From positions 1 to 36,917 of the forward strand of contig NZ_JAFAVR010000284.1 in assembly GCF_019242355.1 (NCBI RefSeq): DNA of 36,917 bases, given 5' to 3'. The stretch's first letter is position 1, and each line of letters begins with the position of its first letter. Below, piece by piece: positions 5,536 to 25,637 of the stretch. This DNA is from Sphingomonas sp. GTDB taxonomy: Bacteria; Pseudomonadota; Alphaproteobacteria; Sphingomonadales; Sphingomonadaceae. A program made the position numbers and the translations under genes. The notes beneath the pieces were generated by a model that made no database searches, was not told where the DNA came from, and saw nothing but the letters and a program-made list of their open reading frames with translations.

Positions 5536-6392
5536 CGGGAGGCACGCCCCTCGACCGGTCCGCCCTCGATGCCCATCCGGTGCCGCCCGTCACCGCCGGC
5601 GACAAGGACAGCAAGGGCCGGATTCTCGTGGTCGCTGGGAGCCGCGACGTCCCGGGCGCGGCCCTGCTCACGGCGACGGCGGCCATGCGCGCCGGCGCCG
5701 GCAAGCTGCAGATCGCCACGATCGAAAGCATTGCTCCGCACATCGGCATTGCAATGCCCGAAGCGATGGTGATCGGTCTTCCCGAAGAGGATGGCGGCTT
5801 CGCTGCCGCGGCCGTGGACCCGCTTGCCGAGCACGCCGCCAAGGCCGACGCTGTCATTGCCGGACCCGGCCTCTCTCAGGGCGAGGTCTGCCGGAGTATC
5901 GCCGGCGCGCTTCTCGACACCGATGGCGCGATTGCGCTGGATGCTGCCTTGCTTCACGCACTGCGGCCCGCGCGGGAAGCCAGACCTTCACTGCCAGTCC
6001 TTCTTCCCCACGCCGGCGAGATGGCGTCCCTTCTCGACTGCGAGCCTGACCAGATCGAGGCCGATCCCATCGGCTGCGGCCTGCGCGCCGCCGAGCTCTA
6101 CCGCTCGCTTGTCCTGGTGAAAGGTGTGGTCAGCCATGTCGTCACTCCAGACGGCCGCTGCTGGACCTATCGGGGCGGGTCCGCCGGGCTTGGCGTGTCC
6201 GGCAGCGGTGACGTCCTTGCCGGCATCGTTGGCGGCTTGCTGGCGCGCGGCGCAGACCCGCTCAATGCCTTGCTATGGTCGGTCTGGCTTCACGGCGAAG
6301 CCGGTGCCCGGCTCAGTCGTAGCGTCGGCCCGCTCGGTTTCCTCGCCCGCGAGATCGCCCGCCAGGTCCCGGCGCTACTCCGCGGCGCCTGA
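5532..6392 (+). CDS. nnrD: ADP/ATP-dependent NAD(P)H-hydrate dehydratase
   Basis: Repairs hydrated NADH and NADPH in the cytoplasm by nucleotide-dependent dehydration of the S-epimer. The 286-residue protein has a ribokinase-like fold signature: GDKDSKGRILVVAGS near residue 22, AGPGLSQ, and GVSGSGDVLAGIVGGLLARG with the catalytic aspartate near residue 227. Many bacterial homologues are fused to the NnrE epimerase. Here there is no epimerase domain, and the length fits the dehydratase alone. GTG at 5532 overlaps the preceding TGA as GTGA; the longer ORF in the track is read-through upstream. The 3' end overlaps that of convergent pyruvate kinase by 18 bp. Confidence 0.9.
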   Translation: MTGGTPLDRSALDAHPVPPVTAGDKDSKGRILVVAGSRDVPGAALLTATAAMRAGAGKLQIATIESIAPHIGIAMPEAMVIGLPEEDGGFAAAAVDPLAEHAAKADAVIAGPGLSQGEVCRSIAGALLDTDGAIALDAALLHALRPAREARPSLPVLLPHAGEMASLLDCEPDQIEADPIGCGLRAAELYRSLVLVKGVVSHVVTPDGRCWTYRGGSAGLGVSGSGDVLAGIVGGLLARGADPLNALLWSVWLHGEAGARLSRSVGPLGFLAREIARQVPALLRGA

Positions 6393-7877
6393 GCCCTTGC
6401 TCGCCTCGTAGCGCTCCAGTTCGTCGCCCGCGAGCCGCACCACGTGCAGCACATTGGTCGAACCCGCGGTTCCGAACGGGATCCCGGCCATCAGCACGAT
6501 TCTCTCCCCGCCCTTCGCGATCTGGTGCCGAAGCGCCATGCGCTTGCCCTTGGCGACCATCTCTTCGAAGCTGGAGACATCTCGGGTTTGCACCGCGTGC
6601 ACGCCCCACAAGAGGCCCAGCCGCCGTGCGGTCGTCAAAGACGCGCTCATCGCCAGTAGCGGCACCGGCGGGCGCTCGCGTGCGATCCTGCGCGCCGTGG
6701 CACCCGAGCTCGAATAGCAGACCATCGCCGTCGCCGAGACCGTGCTTGCGATCTGCCGCGCCGACCCGGCGAGCGCATCCGCGGTGGTCGGCTCGAGCTT
6801 GGTCTGGGTGAAGTGAATACGCGCGGTGTAGCTCGGGTCGCGCTCCACGCTGATCGCGATCCGGTCCATCATCTGCACGGCTTCGCACGGATACTGGCCA
6901 GCCGCGCTCTCGGCCGACAGCATCACCGCATCGGCGCCATCGTAGATCGCAGTCGCAACATCGCTCACCTCGGCCCGGGTCGGGGTGGGCGAGGTGATCA
7001 TCGATTCCAGCATCTGCGTCGCCACCACGACCGGCTTTCCGAACTGGCGCGCCGTCGCGACGATGCGGTTCTGCAAGGGCGGCACCTGCTCGGGCGGAAG
7101 CTCGACTCCCAGGTCCCCGCGCGCGACCATCACAGCGTCGGACAGCGCGACGATGTCGTTCAGCCGGTCGATCGCGGCCGGCTTCTCGATCTTCGCGAGC
7201 AGCGCCGCCCGGTCCCCGATCAGAGAGCGCGCTTCGGCCACGTCCTCCGGACGCTGCACGAACGACAGCGCCACCCAGTCGGCATTCTGCTCCAGCGCAA
7301 ACTGCAGGTCGGACCGGTCCTTCTCGGTCAGCGCCGGAATTGGAACGACGACGTCGGGCACATTGACGCCCTTGTTGTCCGATACCCGTCCGCCGACCTG
7401 GACCTGGGTGACGATCTGCTCCTCGCCGCTTTCCAGCACCTTCAGGCGGACCTTGCCGTCGTCGATCAGGATGTTGGTTCCCGGTTTCACCGCCTCGAAT
7501 AGCTCCGGATGCGGAAGCTCGACCCGGTGCGCATCGCCCGACGATGCCCGCCGGTCGAAGATGAAGCGCTCGCCCGTCTTCAGCTGGGTCGCGCCGCTGT
7601 CGAAATGACCGACGCGAAGCTTGGGACCCTGAAGGTCGAACAGGATCGTCGTCGGCCGCCGGAACTCCTCCTCCAGCGCCCGGATTGCATTGACCAGCGC
7701 CGCCTTGGCCTGCTGGTCGCCGTGGCTCATGTTGATCCGGAAGGCGTCGGCACCCGCAATCATCAACTGGCGGATCATCTCGGGCGTGCTCGACGCCGGG
7801 CCCAGCGTGGCCAGGATCTTCACCTTGCGCGCACGCGGCGGGAGAGTCTCGGTCAAGGGTGGGTCCTTCTTCGGCAA
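6375..7877 (-). CDS. pyk: Pyruvate kinase
   Basis: Final ATP-generating step of glycolysis, phosphoenolpyruvate plus ADP to pyruvate. The 500-residue length is slightly longer than usual because of a short N-terminal extension. Seen in order: KILATLGPASS with RINMSHG (residues 20-53), DLQGPKLRVG, the active-site signature LLAKIEKPAAIDRLN with K229 and metal-binding E231 and D255, VVATQMLESM (285-293), then the C-terminal domain with CYSSSGATARRIA. Its own strand has gapR diverging upstream. The gene converges on and overlaps nnrD. The ATG fits the conserved N-terminus. Confidence 0.97.
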   Translation of the reverse strand: MPKKDPPLTETLPPRARKVKILATLGPASSTPEMIRQLMIAGADAFRINMSHGDQQAKAALVNAIRALEEEFRRPTTILFDLQGPKLRVGHFDSGATQLKTGERFIFDRRASSGDAHRVELPHPELFEAVKPGTNILIDDGKVRLKVLESGEEQIVTQVQVGGRVSDNKGVNVPDVVVPIPALTEKDRSDLQFALEQNADWVALSFVQRPEDVAEARSLIGDRAALLAKIEKPAAIDRLNDIVALSDAVMVARGDLGVELPPEQVPPLQNRIVATARQFGKPVVVATQMLESMITSPTPTRAEVSDVATAIYDGADAVMLSAESAAGQYPCEAVQMMDRIAISVERDPSYTARIHFTQTKLEPTTADALAGSARQIASTVSATAMVCYSSSGATARRIARERPPVPLLAMSASLTTARRLGLLWGVHAVQTRDVSSFEEMVAKGKRMALRHQIAKGGERIVLMAGIPFGTAGSTNVLHVVRLAGDELERYEASKGSGAAE

Positions 7878-7917
7878 GCGCCCGCCAATAGTCGCTCCCG
7901 CCCAGCGTTCAAGCCGC

Positions 7918-7946
7918 TTGAGCAGTCGCGCAGCCTCGCCTAGACG
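7918..7946 (+). promoter_or_regulatory. Candidate gapR promoter
   Basis: TTGAGC and TAGACG are separated by 17 bp in the 105-bp divergent gap between pyk and gapR. A TARAC-type -10 recurs before ybgC and the dipeptidase gene in this window. Position and spacing fit a housekeeping sigma factor; the assignment is by eye. Confidence 0.4.
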
Positions 7947-7982
7947 GCGCCTTCACACACGCACATCGGAGTTCTTGATAGC

Positions 7983-8234: not shown

Positions 8235-8978
8235 ATGGCCGGCCATTCCAAATTCAAGAACATCATGTATCGGAAGGGTGCGCAGGACAAGAAACGGTCC
8301 GCGCTCTTCTCGAAGCTCAGCCGCGAGATCACCGTCGCGGCGAAGATGGGCCTGCCCGACCCGGAAGCGAACGCGCGCCTGCGCGCCGCGGTCATCGCCG
8401 CGCGCGCCCAGTCGATGCCAAAGGACAATATCCAGCGATCGATCGACAAGGCCTCGTCCGGCGACACCGAGAGCTATGAGGAGATCCGCTACGAGGGCTT
8501 CGGGCCCGGCGGCGTCGCGCTGATCGTCGAAGCGCTGACCGACAACCGCAACCGAACCGCCACTAACGTCCGCACCGCCTTCTCCAAGAACGGCGGCAAC
8601 CTCGGCACGGGCGGCAGCGTCAGCCACGGCTTCGAGCGGCTCGGCCTGATCGAATATCCGGCCAGCGCCGGGGACGCCGACAAGGTGCTGGAGGCCGCGA
8701 TCGAGGCGGGCGCTGACGACGTCGAGAGCGACGAGGGCGGCCACCGTATCTGGACCAGCATCGACAGCCTGCACGATGTTGCCCGCGCACTCGAGCCGCT
8801 GCTCGGCGAAGGGGAAGGCGCCAAGCTCGCGTGGAAGCCCTCGACCGAAGTCGAAGTCCGCGGCGACGAGGCCCAGACCCTGATGAAGCTCATCGACACG
8901 CTGGAAGAAGACGACGACGTCCAGACCGTCTGGGGCAATTACGACATCCCGGATGACGAGCTGGAGAAGCTGGGCTGA
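8235..8978 (+). CDS. yebC: YebC/PmpR family protein
   Basis: A 247-residue YebC family protein. Members have been described as DNA-binding regulators and more recently as ribosome-associated factors that help translation of proline-rich stretches, so the exact role here is open. The N-terminus [21 protein letters not shown] is diagnostic; the central [14 protein letters not shown] and [12 protein letters not shown] and the C-terminal ETLMKLID-type segment are also conserved. The neighbourhood with ruvC is conserved in many proteobacteria. Its stop TGA overlaps the proposed CTG start of ruvC, and its 3' end supplies the GGAG ribosome-binding site for that gene. Confidence 0.95.
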
Positions 8979-9466
8979 TCATTCTCGGCCTCGACCCTGG
9001 CCTGGGAACGACCGGCTGGGGATTGATCGAGGCTGAGGGGAATCGCCTGAGGCATGTCGCCAACGGCCAGCTCAAGACGGATCCAGCCGCGCCGCTTGCG
9101 CGTAGTCTCGCGCATCTCGCGGACCAGCTGGACGCGCTTCTCGCCGACCGCTGTCCCCACGCCGCCGCAGTCGAGGAAGTGTTCGTCAACACCAATCCGC
9201 AGTCGACACTGAAGCTCGGCCAGGCTCGCGGCGTCGCAATCATGACTGCCGCCCGTTCCGGTATCGACGTCGGCGAATATGCGCCGACGCTCGTCAAGAA
9301 AGCCGTGGTCGGCACCGGCAAGGCCGACAAGGCGCAGGTCCACGCCATGGTTGCGCGCCTGCTCCCTGGAGCGACGATCGCCGGCCCGGATGCCGCCGAC
9401 GCCCTCGCCGTCGCCATCACCCACGCCCACCACTTGGCGAGCAGGCGGGCTGGCATTACCCGTTGA
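8975..9466 (+). CDS. ruvC: Holliday junction endonuclease RuvC, proposed CTG start
   Basis: Resolves Holliday junctions as a dimer within the RuvABC complex. The predicted 163-residue protein begins [17 protein letters not shown] after the initiator and carries catalytic D7, a glutamate in [10 protein letters not shown], and the C-terminal acidic pair in [16 protein letters not shown]. The track starts at TTG 9023, which would remove D7 and the first beta strand. Upstream, the frame closes at a TGA at 8954, and the only non-rare candidates are CTG 8975 or an even less usual ATC 8978. CTG overlaps the yebC stop as CTGA and has GGAG with an 8-nt spacer, so it is chosen. Confidence 0.9.
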
Positions 9467-20506: not shown

Positions 20507-21505
20507 TCAATCGTCCTCATCCTCGTAACCTACCAAATTCAGCTCACACGCCTTGATCTGGTGGGTCATGCACCAGTGCTTGAGCGCTTCCTCGCGGCCG
20601 TGGGTGATCCAGACTTCGCTTGGCGCGAGCTCGCGGATCGTCATGGTGAGCTCGTCCCAGTCGGCGTGATCGCTGATGACCAGCGGCAGCTCGACGTTGC
20701 GCTGGCGCGCGCGCTGGCGGATGCGCATCCAGCCTGAGGCCATCGCCGTCACCGGGTCCGGAAGCCGCCGCGACCAGCGGTCGTTGAGCGCTCCGGGCGG
20801 GCAGATGACGATGTGACCGGCCATCTCCTGCTTGCTCGCGCCGGCGGTGTGGCGAAGCTCGCCCAAGGCCACGCCGAAGCTCTCGTAGAGCTGGTTCAAC
20901 CGCTCCATCGCGCCGTGGAAATAGATCGGCGCGTCGTGCCCGCGGGCGCGCAATTCGGTGATGATGCGCTGCGCCTTACCGAGCGCATAGGCGCCGACCA
21001 GGACGCATCGGCTCGGGTCGGAATGCAGGCGGTGGAGTAGCCGGTCGATCTCGCTGCCCGTGTCCGGGTGGCGAAAGACCGGCAGGCCGAACGTCGCCTC
21101 GGTGATGAAGATGTCGCACGGCACCGGCACGAAGCACGGGCAGGTGGGGTCGGGACGGCGCTTGTAGTCGCCCGACACCACGACCCGCTCGCCCTTGTGC
21201 TCCATTACGATCTGGGCGGAACCGAGCACATGCCCTGCCGGAACGAAGCGCACATCGACATCGCCAACGCGAAGGCTCTCGTCATAGGCGATCGGCTGCC
21301 CCGACTGCGGTCCGTAGCGCACGCCCATGATCGCCAGCGTCTCGGTCGTGGCCAGCACCGCGCCATGCCCGCCACGCGCATGGTCGCCGTGGCCATGCGT
21401 GACCCAGGCTCGGTCCTTGGGCTGCGACGGATCGATCCACGCATCGGCGGGGCGCACATAGATGCCCTCCGGGTGGGACTCGATCCAGGAACCCAATCGC
21501 GCCAT
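20507..21505 (-). CDS. Ligase-associated DNA damage response exonuclease
   Basis: Metallo-beta-lactamase/beta-CASP-type nuclease of 332 residues, a marker of the four-gene ligase-associated repair set (exonuclease, ATP-dependent ligase, DEXH helicase, PdeM). The metal motif THGHGDHARGGH is at 36-47 (H37, H39, D41, H42). AGHVLGSAQ, VVSGDYKRRPDP, FITEATFG and SDHADWDEL follow in the usual order. It diverges from the small membrane protein and helicase genes. A TATAGC -10-like element ends 5 nt before the ATG, so its mRNA may be leaderless. The ligase gene usually found beside it is missing. Confidence 0.9.
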   Translation of the reverse strand: MARLGSWIESHPEGIYVRPADAWIDPSQPKDRAWVTHGHGDHARGGHGAVLATTETLAIMGVRYGPQSGQPIAYDESLRVGDVDVRFVPAGHVLGSAQIVMEHKGERVVVSGDYKRRPDPTCPCFVPVPCDIFITEATFGLPVFRHPDTGSEIDRLLHRLHSDPSRCVLVGAYALGKAQRIITELRARGHDAPIYFHGAMERLNQLYESFGVALGELRHTAGASKQEMAGHIVICPPGALNDRWSRRLPDPVTAMASGWMRIRQRARQRNVELPLVISDHADWDELTMTIRELAPSEVWITHGREEALKHWCMTHQIKACELNLVGYEDEDD

Positions 21506-21510
21506 CGCGA

Positions 21511-21521
21511 GCTATACTAGC
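21511..21521. promoter_or_regulatory. Candidate shared -10 element for divergent genes
   Basis: GCTATACTAGC reads TATACT on the plus strand (21513-21518, toward the small membrane protein) and TATAGC on the minus strand (21516-21511, toward the exonuclease). It is nearly symmetric (GCTA-tac-TAGC). No convincing -35 was seen for either direction. Confidence 0.35.
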
Positions 21522-21571
21522 CGAAAGCGGGACAGTTCCCGTGCAGCCAGATCAATTCGGGAGGCAAAAGC

Positions 21572-21751
21572 ATGGACGAAACCACCCTTGGCATTGTCGA
21601 AATTCTCGGACCGGCGATCCTCCTGATCGTCCTCGTCTGGCTGGTCATGCAGCGCCGGTCGACCGGCAAGACCGGCCGCACCGAACAAGCCACGCGCGAA
21701 GGCTATGCCGAGGAAGAGGCGCGCCGACGCGAGGGGACCGACGAGCTCTGA
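21572..21751 (+). CDS. Small single-pass membrane protein, 59 aa
   Basis: An ORF too short for the track. It encodes MDETTLGIVEILG, then one membrane helix (about 14-26, AILLIVLVWLVM) and a charged cytoplasmic tail rich in R and E ending GTDEL. GGGAGG lies 7-8 nt before the ATG, a strong ribosome-binding site. Its stop TGA overlaps the proposed CTG start of the helicase (CTGA), and its purine-rich end GAGGGG would serve as that gene's ribosome-binding site. Function unknown. Confidence 0.75.
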   Translation: MDETTLGIVEILGPAILLIVLVWLVMQRRSTGKTGRTEQATREGYAEEEARRREGTDEL

Positions 21752-24156
21752 GCAGACTTCCCGAAGCCGTTCAAAGCTGGTTCGACGCCAAGGGATGGCG
21801 GCCGCGCCGGCACCAGCTGGAGATGCTGGAGCGCGCGCGGGCCGGACGAAGCGCGCTACTGGTCGCCGCAACCGGCGCCGGCAAGACGCTCGCCGGGTTC
21901 CTGCCCACCATCTGCGACCTCGCCGAGCGGCCCGCCGATGGGCTCCACACGCTCTACGTCTCGCCGCTGAAGGCGCTGGCGGTCGACGTCCAGCGCAATT
22001 TGATCGGCCCGATCGAGGCGATGGGTCTGCCGATCCGGGTCGAGACGCGCACCGGCGACACGCCGTCCGACCGCAAGGCGCGGCAGCGGCTGAAGCCGCC
22101 GCAGGTGCTGCTGACGACGCCGGAATCCTTGAGCCTGCTGCTGAGCTATCCTGACTCCGTGACGATGTTCGAAAGCCTGCAATCGATCGTCGTCGACGAG
22201 CTTCACGGCTTCGCCAAGGAGAAGCGCGGCGATTTGCTGTCGCTGTCGATGGCGCGCCTTCAGAAGCTGGCGCCCGGACTTCGCCGGGTCGGGCTGTCGG
22301 CGACGATCAGCGACCCCGACGCCTATCGCGGCTGGCTCGCTCCCAACGCGGACATGGAGCTGGTCGATCTTGTCATCGGCGATCCGGGCGCGGACCCGGA
22401 CCTGTCGATCCTGATCCCCGAGAACCGCATCCCCTGGGCCGGCCACAGCGGCCGCCACGCCGCGCGCGAGGTGATGAAGCTGATCGAGGCGCACAAGACG
22501 ACCCTCGTCTTCTGCAACACGCGGAGCCTCGCCGAACTGATCTTCCAGGACCTGTGGGCCGTCAACGACAACGCCCTTCCCATCGGCATCCACCACGGCA
22601 GTCTCGCGGTCGAGGCACGGCGCCGGGTCGAGGGCGCGATGGCCATGGGCAAGCTCCGCGGCCTGGTCGCCACCGCCAGCCTCGACCTCGGCATCGACTG
22701 GGGCGATGTCGATCTCGTCGTTCAGATGGGCGCGCCGAAGGGGAGCTCGCGCCTGTTGCAGCGCATCGGCCGCGCCAACCACCGGCTCGACGAGCCGAGC
22801 AAGGGGATCATCGTCCCCGGCAACCGCTTCGAATATCTCGAGGCCCGGGCCGCGCTCGACGCGATCGACGACGGCGAGCTCGACCCCGAAGTCTTCCGCC
22901 CCGGCGCGCTCGACGTCCTCGCCCAGCACATCCTCGCCATGGCCGTCGCCGCACCATTCCAGCAAGACGAGATGCTCGCCGAGGTTCACTCGTCGGCGCC
23001 ATACGCCGGTCTTAAGCAGGAAACCTTCGAGGAAATCCTGAACTTCATCGCGACGGGCGGCTATGCTCTGAAAGCGTACGACCGCTTTCGGCGGCTGGTC
23101 CCGGAAGCCGGCGGCCTGTGGCGGATCACCCGGCCGCAGATCGCCCAGCAACATCGACTCAACGCCGGCGTCATCGTCGAGCAGCCGCTGCTCACCGTCC
23201 GCTTCCGCAACGGCCGCAGCCTCGGCACAATCGAGGAAGGCTACGCCTCGACCCTGGCGCCCGGCGATCACTTCTTCTTCTCGGGCCTCAGCCTCGAGGT
23301 CGAGCAGTTCAAGGACACGGACGTCATCGTCCATGCTTCGTCGAAGCAGGCGCGGATCGTCACCTACGGCGGCCAGCGCATGTCGATGTCGACCCATCTC
23401 GCCAACCGCGTCCGCCACATGCTGTGCGACCGCAACGACTGGAGCCGCTTCCCAGCCGACGTCAGTGAGTGGCTGGAGGTGCAGTCCGAACGCTCCGTCC
23501 TCCCGGAACCACACCAGCTTCTCGTCGAGACTTTCCCGCACGAGGGCAAGTTCTACATGGTCGCCTACAGCTTCGAAGGCTGGAACGCGCACCAGTCGCT
23601 GGGAATGCTGATCACGCGCCGGATGGAGACGGCCGGGCTAAAGCCGCTCGGCTTCGTCGCCAACGACTACGGCCTCGCCTGCTATGGGCTGGAGCCGATC
23701 ACCGATCCGCAATCGCTGTTCTCGCCCGATATCCTCGAGGACGAGTTCGTCACCTGGGTCGAAAGCTCGATGCTGCTCAAGAATGCCTTTCGCGAGGTCG
23801 CGGTGATCGGCGGACTCGTCGAGCGCCATCATCCCGGCAAGAAGAAGACAGGGCGGCAGGTCAGCTTCTCGACCGACCTCATCTACGACGTGCTCCGCCG
23901 ATACGAGCCCGAGCACTTGCTGCTACGCGCCGCCTGGGACGATGCGCGGCGCCGAATGACCGAGCTGGGCCGCCTCGTCCGCCTGGTCGATCGCGCCTCG
24001 GCGACCATGCTCCACGTCGAGGTCGATCGGATCACGCCGATGGCCGTGCCGCTGATGGTCATCGTCGGCCGCGAAGCCCTCCCGCCGGGAGCCGAGGCAG
24101 ACGAGACCCTGCTTAGCCAGGCCGAAGCGCTGGCCCAGGAAGCCATGCAATTATAG
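21748..24156 (+). CDS. Ligase-associated DNA damage response DEXH helicase, proposed CTG start
   Basis: Lhr-like superfamily 2 helicase of 802 residues. A Q-like HQLEML is at 22-27, followed by Walker A ATGAGKT at 41-47, VSPLKALAVD, TTPESLSLLL, DELH at 150-153, VGLSATISDP, VFCNTRSLAE, HHGSL and the arginine-finger region QRIGRANHR, then the Lhr winged-helix and C-terminal domains. It unwinds DNA or RNA-DNA substrates in the ligase-associated repair pathway (family knowledge). There is no ATG, GTG or TTG between the preceding stop and ATG 21823, which would remove the Q-like motif. CTG 21748 overlaps the upstream TGA as CTGA and gives a standard family N-terminus. Confidence 0.92.
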   Translation: MSRLPEAVQSWFDAKGWRPRRHQLEMLERARAGRSALLVAATGAGKTLAGFLPTICDLAERPADGLHTLYVSPLKALAVDVQRNLIGPIEAMGLPIRVETRTGDTPSDRKARQRLKPPQVLLTTPESLSLLLSYPDSVTMFESLQSIVVDELHGFAKEKRGDLLSLSMARLQKLAPGLRRVGLSATISDPDAYRGWLAPNADMELVDLVIGDPGADPDLSILIPENRIPWAGHSGRHAAREVMKLIEAHKTTLVFCNTRSLAELIFQDLWAVNDNALPIGIHHGSLAVEARRRVEGAMAMGKLRGLVATASLDLGIDWGDVDLVVQMGAPKGSSRLLQRIGRANHRLDEPSKGIIVPGNRFEYLEARAALDAIDDGELDPEVFRPGALDVLAQHILAMAVAAPFQQDEMLAEVHSSAPYAGLKQETFEEILNFIATGGYALKAYDRFRRLVPEAGGLWRITRPQIAQQHRLNAGVIVEQPLLTVRFRNGRSLGTIEEGYASTLAPGDHFFFSGLSLEVEQFKDTDVIVHASSKQARIVTYGGQRMSMSTHLANRVRHMLCDRNDWSRFPADVSEWLEVQSERSVLPEPHQLLVETFPHEGKFYMVAYSFEGWNAHQSLGMLITRRMETAGLKPLGFVANDYGLACYGLEPITDPQSLFSPDILEDEFVTWVESSMLLKNAFREVAVIGGLVERHHPGKKKTGRQVSFSTDLIYDVLRRYEPEHLLLRAAWDDARRRMTELGRLVRLVDRASATMLHVEVDRITPMAVPLMVIVGREALPPGAEADETLLSQAEALAQEAMQL

Positions 24157-24201
24157 CGAAGTCTCATTGCCCATTCTCCCCGCATCTGCGAGGCTTGGGC
24201 C

Positions 24202-24483
24202 ATGAAGCGCATCCTTATCCTGCTCGTTCCCGTGCTCCTCAGCGGCTGCGTCGTCGAGACGGTCGCGAAGACCGCCGTCACCGCCGTCACCCTGCCGGTG
24301 AAGGCCGCCTCCTATGGAGTCGACAAGCTCACCACCAGCCAGGCCGAGGCCGACCGCAACGCCGGCCGCAAGCTGCGCAAGGAGGACGAAGAGCGCGGCA
24401 AGCTCTATCGCGACGCAATGGCGCGCTGCCGCTCCGGCCGCCCGCTGCCGACCGACGATTGCACCGGCGGAGCGCAGCGCTGA
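24202..24483 (+). CDS. Small lipoprotein
   Basis: A 93-residue protein with a lipoprotein signal: MKRILILLVPVLLSGC with lipobox LSGC and Cys16 as the lipidated residue. The remainder is short, basic and helical (KLRKEDEERGKLYRDAMARC) with two further cysteines. Role unknown. It separates the helicase from the RNase AS-like gene inside the repair island, and its final codons provide GGAG for the CTG start of that gene, with a CTGA overlap. Confidence 0.8.
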   Translation: MKRILILLVPVLLSGCVVETVAKTAVTAVTLPVKAASYGVDKLTTSQAEADRNAGRKLRKEDEERGKLYRDAMARCRSGRPLPTDDCTGGAQR

Positions 24484-24929
24484 GATATTTCCTCGACACC
24501 GAATATAATGGTGTCGGTGGGGCGCTGCTTAGCCTTGCCCTGGTCCCGGACGACGGGGACGATTTCTACCTGACATTGAAAACCGACGAGCCCATCTCTG
24601 AATGGGTCGGGCAGCACGTCATCCCCTACATGGACATGGTCCCTGAGCCTTTGTCTTGCCCGCGCCTGTCCCGGGATGATGCCGCCAAGGAGCTCGAGCA
24701 CTATCTCCGTCATGACGAGGAGCCGCTGATCGTCGCCGACTGGCCGGAGGATGTCGCGCAGTTCTGCAACCTCCTGATCACCGGACCCGGCGACATGGTC
24801 GAACTTCGCCACCTGACCTTCCGCCTGACCCCGATGAGCAATTTCAGCACCGCGGCGAACAGCAAGGTGCCGCACAACGCCCTCCACGACGCCCGCGCGT
24901 TTCGCGACCACGTCCTGTCGATGGAATGA
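24480..24929 (+). CDS. RNase AS-like 3'-5' exoribonuclease, proposed CTG start
   Basis: DEDDh-type exonuclease of 149 residues. The first motif is RYFLDTEYNG (D6, E8), the internal aspartate lies around IVADWPEDVAQF (D87), and the terminal motif is PHNALHDARAFRDH (H136, D137). It resembles the mycobacterial RNase AS family, which degrades polyA-type RNA. RYFLDTE is the family N-terminus, and no ATG, GTG or TTG can encode it: the next ATG is near residue 51. CTG at 24480 overlaps the lipoprotein stop as CTGA and has GGAG with a 7-nt spacer. Confidence 0.82.
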   Translation: MRYFLDTEYNGVGGALLSLALVPDDGDDFYLTLKTDEPISEWVGQHVIPYMDMVPEPLSCPRLSRDDAAKELEHYLRHDEEPLIVADWPEDVAQFCNLLITGPGDMVELRHLTFRLTPMSNFSTAANSKVPHNALHDARAFRDHVLSME

Positions 24930-24974
24930 TTTTGCCGGTTGCCAAGGCGCTCCGCTGCTCGCATTGACCTGCTG

Positions 24975-25637
24975 ATGGTTCCCCTTTCGTTCGCAGGCGA
25001 AACGTTTCTCGCAACGGCAGAGGGCGCGCTGTTCTGGCCGGAGCAGAGCGCGCTGCTCGTCGCCGACCTGCACCTCGAGAAGGCGAGCTGGTTTGCGAGG
25101 CTCGGCCAGTTCCTGCCGCCCTACGATTCGCATGCGACCCTCGCGGCGCTGGCGGCGCAGGTGGAGCGCACCAAGGCGACGCGGCTCTACTGCCTCGGCG
25201 ACAGCTTCCACGATCGCTTCGGCTGCGACCGGCTTCCGACCAATGCGCGGGAGCTGCTCACCCGGCTGACGACGCAGCTCGACTGGATCTGGATCGTCGG
25301 CAATCACGATCCCGGCTTCGCCGATCATTGTGGCGGCCGGCTGGTGGATGAGGTCGAAATCGGCGGTATCATCCTCCGCCACGAAGCCGTTCGAGACGAC
25401 CCGGCTCCGGAAATCTCCGGCCATTTCCATCCGAAGCTCCGCCTCAACGTCCGCGGCCGCCATGTTTCCCGCCGCTGCTTCGTGAAGTCGGCGACCAAGA
25501 TCATCATGCCGGCGTTCGGTTCGTTGACCGGCGGGCTCGACGCGCATCATCCAGGCATCCTGGGCTCGGTCGGCAGCGGCGCTGCAGCGCTCGTTCCCGT
25601 GTCGGACCGGCTGTTGCGGTTTCCGCTCGCCGCCTAG
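24975..25637 (+). CDS. pdeM: Ligase-associated DNA damage response endonuclease PdeM
   Basis: Calcineurin-like metallophosphoesterase of 220 residues. Metal ligands are in ADLHLEK (D31, H33), CLGDSFHD (D76), GNHD (N110, H111), LRHEA (H136) and GHFHP (H150, H152). It belongs to the ligase-associated repair set with the exonuclease and helicase upstream. The ATG at 24975 begins with the conserved VPLSFAGE; the earlier TTG in the track adds an unrelated leader. The stop overlaps the convergent PabC-like fragment (CTAG, 4 bp). Confidence 0.92.
   Translation: MVPLSFAGETFLATAEGALFWPEQSALLVADLHLEKASWFARLGQFLPPYDSHATLAALAAQVERTKATRLYCLGDSFHDRFGCDRLPTNARELLTRLTTQLDWIWIVGNHDPGFADHCGGRLVDEVEIGGIILRHEAVRDDPAPEISGHFHPKLRLNVRGRHVSRRCFVKSATKIIMPAFGSLTGGLDAHHPGILGSVGSGAAALVPVSDRLLRFPLAA

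Follow-up and report, generated by a model that had tools for sequence, protein, structure and literature searches.

Probable CTG start codons at stop-codon overlaps in a Sphingomonas genome and other Sphingomonadaceae

Can a bacterial gene begin at CTG when that codon shares bases with the TGA that ends the preceding gene? The question is raised by a gene for an RNase AS-like exoribonuclease in the window, the whole stretch of 36,917 nucleotides of Sphingomonas sp. DNA that was analysed. A sequence-only reading had counted three such CTGA junctions in the window, alongside geometrically identical ATGA and GTGA junctions, and had suggested that this genome uses CTG as a coupled start codon. 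On the evidence below, CTG is very likely a real start codon for a small set of genes, mostly where it overlaps the preceding TGA stop, and re-initiation by terminating ribosomes is proposed as the means. The use of CTG is borne out by homology and by recurrence in other genomes, and the trait is not peculiar to this one genome, extending to the family Sphingomonadaceae.

The three junctions lie at 8975 (ruvC), 21748 (a helicase gene) and 24480 (the RNase AS-like gene), each supported by homology and by recurrence elsewhere; the helicase junction is the one that the earlier reading had left unnamed. The ATGA (14216, 27214) and GTGA (11861, 29274) junctions are likewise present. Table 1 lists the features concerned.

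Table 1. Genes, start codons and related signals at the CTGA junctions of the window
Feature	Position	Strand	Basis and remarks
yebC	8235..8978	+	NF001030, E 9e-102; ends ...KLG-stop with GGC
GGAG before the ruvC CTG	8963-8966	+	7-8 nt from the CTG (range given jointly for RNase AS and ruvC)
CTGA junction yebC-ruvC, CTG start of ruvC	8975..8978	+	In-frame stop at -7 codons; first ordinary start codon thereafter at residue 17
ruvC	8975..9466	+	TIGR00228, E 6e-41; PF02075, E 5e-44; profiles match from residue 2-3
Small upstream ORF, 59 aa	21572..21751	+	Hydrophobic N-terminal stretch; stop overlaps helicase start; last codon CTC
CTGA junction, helicase CTG start	21748..21751	+	Conserved in G089; TIGR04121 matches from residue 7
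Ligase-associated DNA damage response DEXH box helicase	21748..24156	+	TIGR04121, 1048 bits against a cut-off of 850
Small lipoprotein gene	24202..24483	+	Stop TGA 24481-24483, last codon CGC; ORF list; lipoprotein signal MKRILILLVPVLLSGC; weak NCBIfam lipoprotein match
Rival RNase AS start TTG	24459..24461	+	In frame, 7 codons upstream; by-product of lipoprotein GAT-TGC codons; no Shine-Dalgarno (SD) sequence seen
Candidate SD sequence GGAG	24469..24472	+	7-nt spacer to CTG 24480
RNase AS-like start codon CTG	24480..24482	+	CTGA overlap with lipoprotein stop; aligned to homologue starts and to residue 1 of solved RNase AS
RNase AS-like DEDD exoribonuclease gene	24480..24929	+	NF033638, E 6e-5 (below cut-off); alignment; PDB profile match, E 2e-8

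Around 24480 the sequence reads ...ggcGGAGcgcagcgCTGAgatatttcctcgac, and both the overlap with the lipoprotein stop and the spaced GGAG that had been described are found there. The frame opened by this CTG has 149 codons and an N-terminus of LRYFLDTEYNG. Its first ATG is residue 51 (24630), close to where it had been placed; in-frame TTGs at residue 33 (24576) and at -7 (24459) and -95 (24195) codons had been overlooked. The protein resembles RNase AS (Rv2179c) in its N-terminal MRYFxDTE motif and conserved D6 and E8, but falls far under the family cut-offs (23.4 bits against 200 for the NCBIfam RNase AS model NF033638; E 0.024 and 14.8 bits against 27 for the Pfam Rv2179c-like model PF16473). 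A profile built from 15 relatives matches solved RNase AS chains in the PDB over residues 1-89 only, with profile position 1 falling on residue 1 of M. tuberculosis RNase AS. In the alignment of these 15 relatives, D6, E8, D87, H132 and D137 are invariant; the residues of a DEDD motif are present, D87, H132 and D137 presumably belonging to it.

Relatives place a start codon exactly at 24480, which takes the site beyond chance. Among 31 loci from named genomes, mostly of Sphingomonadaceae (one of them, L007, positioned through its alignment offset), the codon aligned to 24480 is always ATG or GTG, with one TTG. Among 29 genomes of the same genus, a set that partly overlaps the first, it is ATG in 15, GTG in 13 and CTG in one, giving a start-type codon at this very site in 60/60 compared loci. 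The single further CTG, in genome G075, has the same lipoprotein overlap; there the SD sequence is weak or absent, without GGAG. In a near relative (84%), a GTG start directly follows the lipoprotein stop. Judged from the overlap, the GGAG spacing and the starts of relatives, CTG 24480 appears confirmed as a genuine start-site feature.

The best proof of CTG starts is, however, ruvC rather than the RNase AS-like gene, for which an ordinary alternative exists in the TTG at -7 codons. Going upstream from the CTG of the window ruvC, one meets an in-frame stop at -7 codons before any ATG, GTG or TTG; downstream, no ordinary start occurs until residue 17, past Asp7, the first catalytic residue of RuvC. 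The CTG is therefore forced. The wobble base of the last yebC codon, GGC, is at the same time the first base of the ruvC start.

A survey of ruvC starts extends this finding to the family. Pattern searches of 301 family genomes, which reach only ruvC genes with a matching N-terminus, yielded first codons for 81 genomes: ATG in 38, CTG in 21, GTG in 16 and TTG in 6. CTG starts occurred in 13/40 genera, several of which also have ATG, GTG or TTG. CTC, ATC and ATT were never found at the start place in this survey, which covered GTG and all codons with a first base other than G; the other codons seen there (ACC, ACG, ACA and AGA) fit genes that start one codon earlier. Within the window's genus, after removal of three matches resembling another gene, CTG was the commonest of 40 ruvC starts (CTG 15, ATG 13, GTG 12). 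An A follows the start codon in all 15 CTG cases, every one of them CTGA, vs 5/13 with ATG (p = 4e-4), and this A is what the stop overlap requires. In the window genome and in L042, L044, L049 and L055, the CTG overlaps a yebC that ends ...LG-stop. Coupling is not always needed, since two family genomes (L038 and L053) have CTG ruvC starts without a yebC overlap, and CTG starts may thus not be limited to coupled junctions. In these two, the start reads CTGATC after strong GGAGG-like sequences, and in-frame TTGs at -6 and -12 are alternatives.

At the helicase junction the SD sequence is weak or absent, and an in-frame GTG lies 69 codons upstream of the CTG. A family search with the 59-residue upstream ORF gave no match. 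The surrounding region (20507-25637) holds ligase-associated DNA damage response genes, namely an exonuclease (TIGR04122, minus strand), the helicase and PdeM (TIGR04123). Between helicase and PdeM sit the genes for the lipoprotein and the RNase AS-like protein. The helicase and RNase AS genes are near each other in G089 too.

G089, a genome of the same genus in one contig, shares with the window the CTGA at both the ruvC and the helicase junction. Three codons upstream of its helicase CTG lies an in-frame stop, and the gene offers no ordinary start ahead of residue 28. CTGA starts are forced there for the helicase, PcaF (3-oxoadipyl-CoA thiolase) and BirA (biotin ligase), and in all three the CTG aligns with homologue starts in family profiles. 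For these three genes and for the window ruvC, no ordinary start can substitute. The CTG of the G089 ruvC is likely rather than forced, with a GTG at -15, and rnhA (RNase HI) has a probable CTGA start, with an ATG at +8 as alternative; the window genome has GTG where the G089 rnhA has CTG.

Junctions were counted in 0.58 Mb of the 2.62-Mb window genome (22%) and in 1.6 Mb of G089, with a gene finder trained on codon-position substitution patterns, as a version with plain base composition for its background had called numerous ORFs in the wrong frame. Of the remaining CTGA junctions in the genomes sampled, the majority read CTGATG, whose ATG at +1 is the ordinary start, so uninspected CTGA counts mislead. 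There was enrichment over control overlaps: coding began without any ATG, GTG or TTG within 20 codons at 4/55 CTGA junctions vs 6/460 control registers (p = 0.015), and three of the six control cases were the same CTGA junctions counted one codon on. Control overlaps were seldom without another start. Family profiles back three of the four CTGA cases, the fourth being a candidate near the start of the G089 contig. This test, spanning -20 to +20 codons, is conservative: all three window cases escape it, having TTGs close by or weak coding scores. When the span was narrowed to -20 to +8, CTGA junctions without another start (6/35 in G089) barely differed from one control register; the automatic count is then near noise, and it is homology that carries the case. 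When codon rescue was tested for every codon, CTG did not stand apart from CCG, GCG and GCC, owing to wrong-frame ORFs, and this result is not taken as evidence. The 0.58 Mb scanned in the window genome held no further verified CTG start.

Inspected cases give CTG 3/67 of four-base overlaps in the window genome and 5/178 in G089, or 3-5%, while C stands before 42-43% of TGA stops. Corrected for the base before TGA, acceptance relative to ATG is 3-4% for CTG, 50-78% for GTG and 17-35% for TTG. CTG is still selected against at four-base overlaps.

How such starts might work is suggested by their geometry. The CTGA junctions are four-base, same-strand overlaps of stop and start, and a GGAG within the upstream gene precedes the CTG of both ruvC and the RNase AS-like gene; many coupled pairs, though not all, have such an internal SD sequence. 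A ribosome finishing the upstream gene would come to rest with CTG in or beside its P site and could re-initiate there with fMet-tRNA despite the C-U mismatch, often aided by the internal GGAG. The first base of the start doubles as the wobble base of the last upstream codon (yebC GGC, lipoprotein CGC, small ORF CTC), so that a synonymous change upstream switches the start between CTG, ATG, GTG and TTG. With a genomic GC content of 66% this base would tend toward C, the commonest wobble state in such GC-rich DNA, and genes of low output may put up with the weaker start.

A stronger proposal is tentative and rather unlikely: that the Sphingomonadaceae have relaxed initiation, with CTG serving as a fourth functional start codon that is efficient once a ribosome has terminated at an overlapping TGA. 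A possible contributor is the initiator tRNA, in which the first of the anticodon stem's three conserved G-C pairs is replaced by A29-U41 in G089; the adjoining 30-40 pair affects discrimination against CUG (PMC11497404). The pattern used to find this tRNA matched none in the window's own draft genome. As a family-specific cause the variant was rejected: it occurs class-wide, in 63/63 pattern-matched alphaproteobacterial genomes, and is therefore at most a background condition.

Three readings dispense with CTG. The RNase AS-like gene might initiate at TTG 24459 inside the lipoprotein gene, since TTG is an ordinary start codon and is present at -7 in G075/L074 too, which would make a CTG start unneeded there. 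This is improbable. The GGAG stands before CTG 24480 and is absent before the TTG; that TTG arises automatically from the lipoprotein Asp-Cys codons whenever the overlap is CTGA; and the starts of all relatives, like that of solved RNase AS, fall at the CTG position. Nor could it account for the ruvC of the window or the helicase, PcaF and BirA of G089. A draft in 287 contigs with 1.9% contamination might be suspected of showing CTG where the true codon is ATG or GTG, through faulty sequencing, binning or assembly. Independent genomes carry the same CTG junctions (ruvC and helicase in G089, RNase AS in G075, ruvC in 21/81 family genomes), and assembly error is excluded by the repetition of two of them in the single contig of G089, leaving this explanation next to no probability. 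It is equally hard to credit that the downstream proteins are fusions to the upstream gene, made by frameshifting at the four shared nucleotides with no new initiation: an unsystematic look noticed no slippery sequence at the overlaps, the three genes upstream (for a lipoprotein, YebC and a small ORF product) bear no relation to each other, a lipoprotein fusion would take a cytoplasmic RNase to the envelope, and relatives have separate ATG or GTG starts for the downstream genes.

A milder account is compatible with CTG as a real start and has close to an even chance of being right. CTG would initiate only as a weak, nearly neutral site, from which the genes are barely expressed; they would persist because a small amount of product suffices, and neither the ribosome nor coupling would be specially adapted. 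The low share of CTG among four-base overlaps, despite the frequency of C before TGA, favours it, as does a published E. coli efficiency for CUG of 0.86% of AUG (PMC11497404). Set against these are the retention of CTG at ruvC in 15/40 genus genomes, above expectation if it were strongly harmful, and the fact that PcaF and BirA are metabolic enzymes.

Two further frames bear mention. On the minus strand at 6375-7952, a long coding-like frame runs from about 7940 with no ATG, GTG or TTG before TTG 7877; this may point to one more unusual start or to a frame called on the wrong strand. In contig L118 (about 590-840), the frame open from an overlap CTG reads KNLICRIICTAALLFAAPVGAQ, resembles a signal peptide and has no ATG, GTG or TTG for 82 codons; it is a possible further non-standard start in the window genome. 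Separately, the sampled G000 contigs L092-L151 have a mean GC of 0.63, vs 0.65-0.67 in long contigs and the window, and on this lower GC some short G000 contigs may be foreign.

Common bacterial gene finders allow only ATG, GTG and TTG, so such genes, including core repair genes like ruvC, are probably truncated, extended or missed in annotation. The ruvC junction also offers a natural, replicated test of CUG avoidance, in which dozens of related genomes carry ATG, GTG, TTG or CTG at one place according to a synonymous upstream base. Should CTG prove effective after termination, the start-codon efficiencies published for isolated genes would be inapplicable to overlapping genes.

A literature search, with subscription journals mostly outside its scope, turned up no account of CTG starts in Sphingomonadaceae, and CUG/CTG goes unmentioned in a 2025 review on coupling (PMC12548453). 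In PMC11497404, which takes this figure, like the efficiency above, from earlier work, CUG makes up 0.024% of bacterial starts, a figure dependent on annotations, which rarely allow CTG. The rare CUG starts treated there share with the present cases the codon and its presumed reading by fMet-tRNA; these differ in recurring within one family and in being concentrated at stop overlaps, with ruvC the example in over a third of genus genomes. The termination-reinitiation coupling at four-base overlaps studied in 720 genomes by Huber et al. 2019 (PMC6728339) has the same geometry, unidirectional pairs and many internal SD sequences, but concerns ATGA and TGATG, with CTGA absent from the text. For start-codon switching, Belinky et al. 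2017 (PMC5622118) found 2 AUG-to-CUG switches among 61,358 ancestral AUG starts. ATG, GTG and TTG swap between close relatives in both studies, whereas here CTG joins them at ruvC in 13 genera, several of which have one of the ordinary codons as well.
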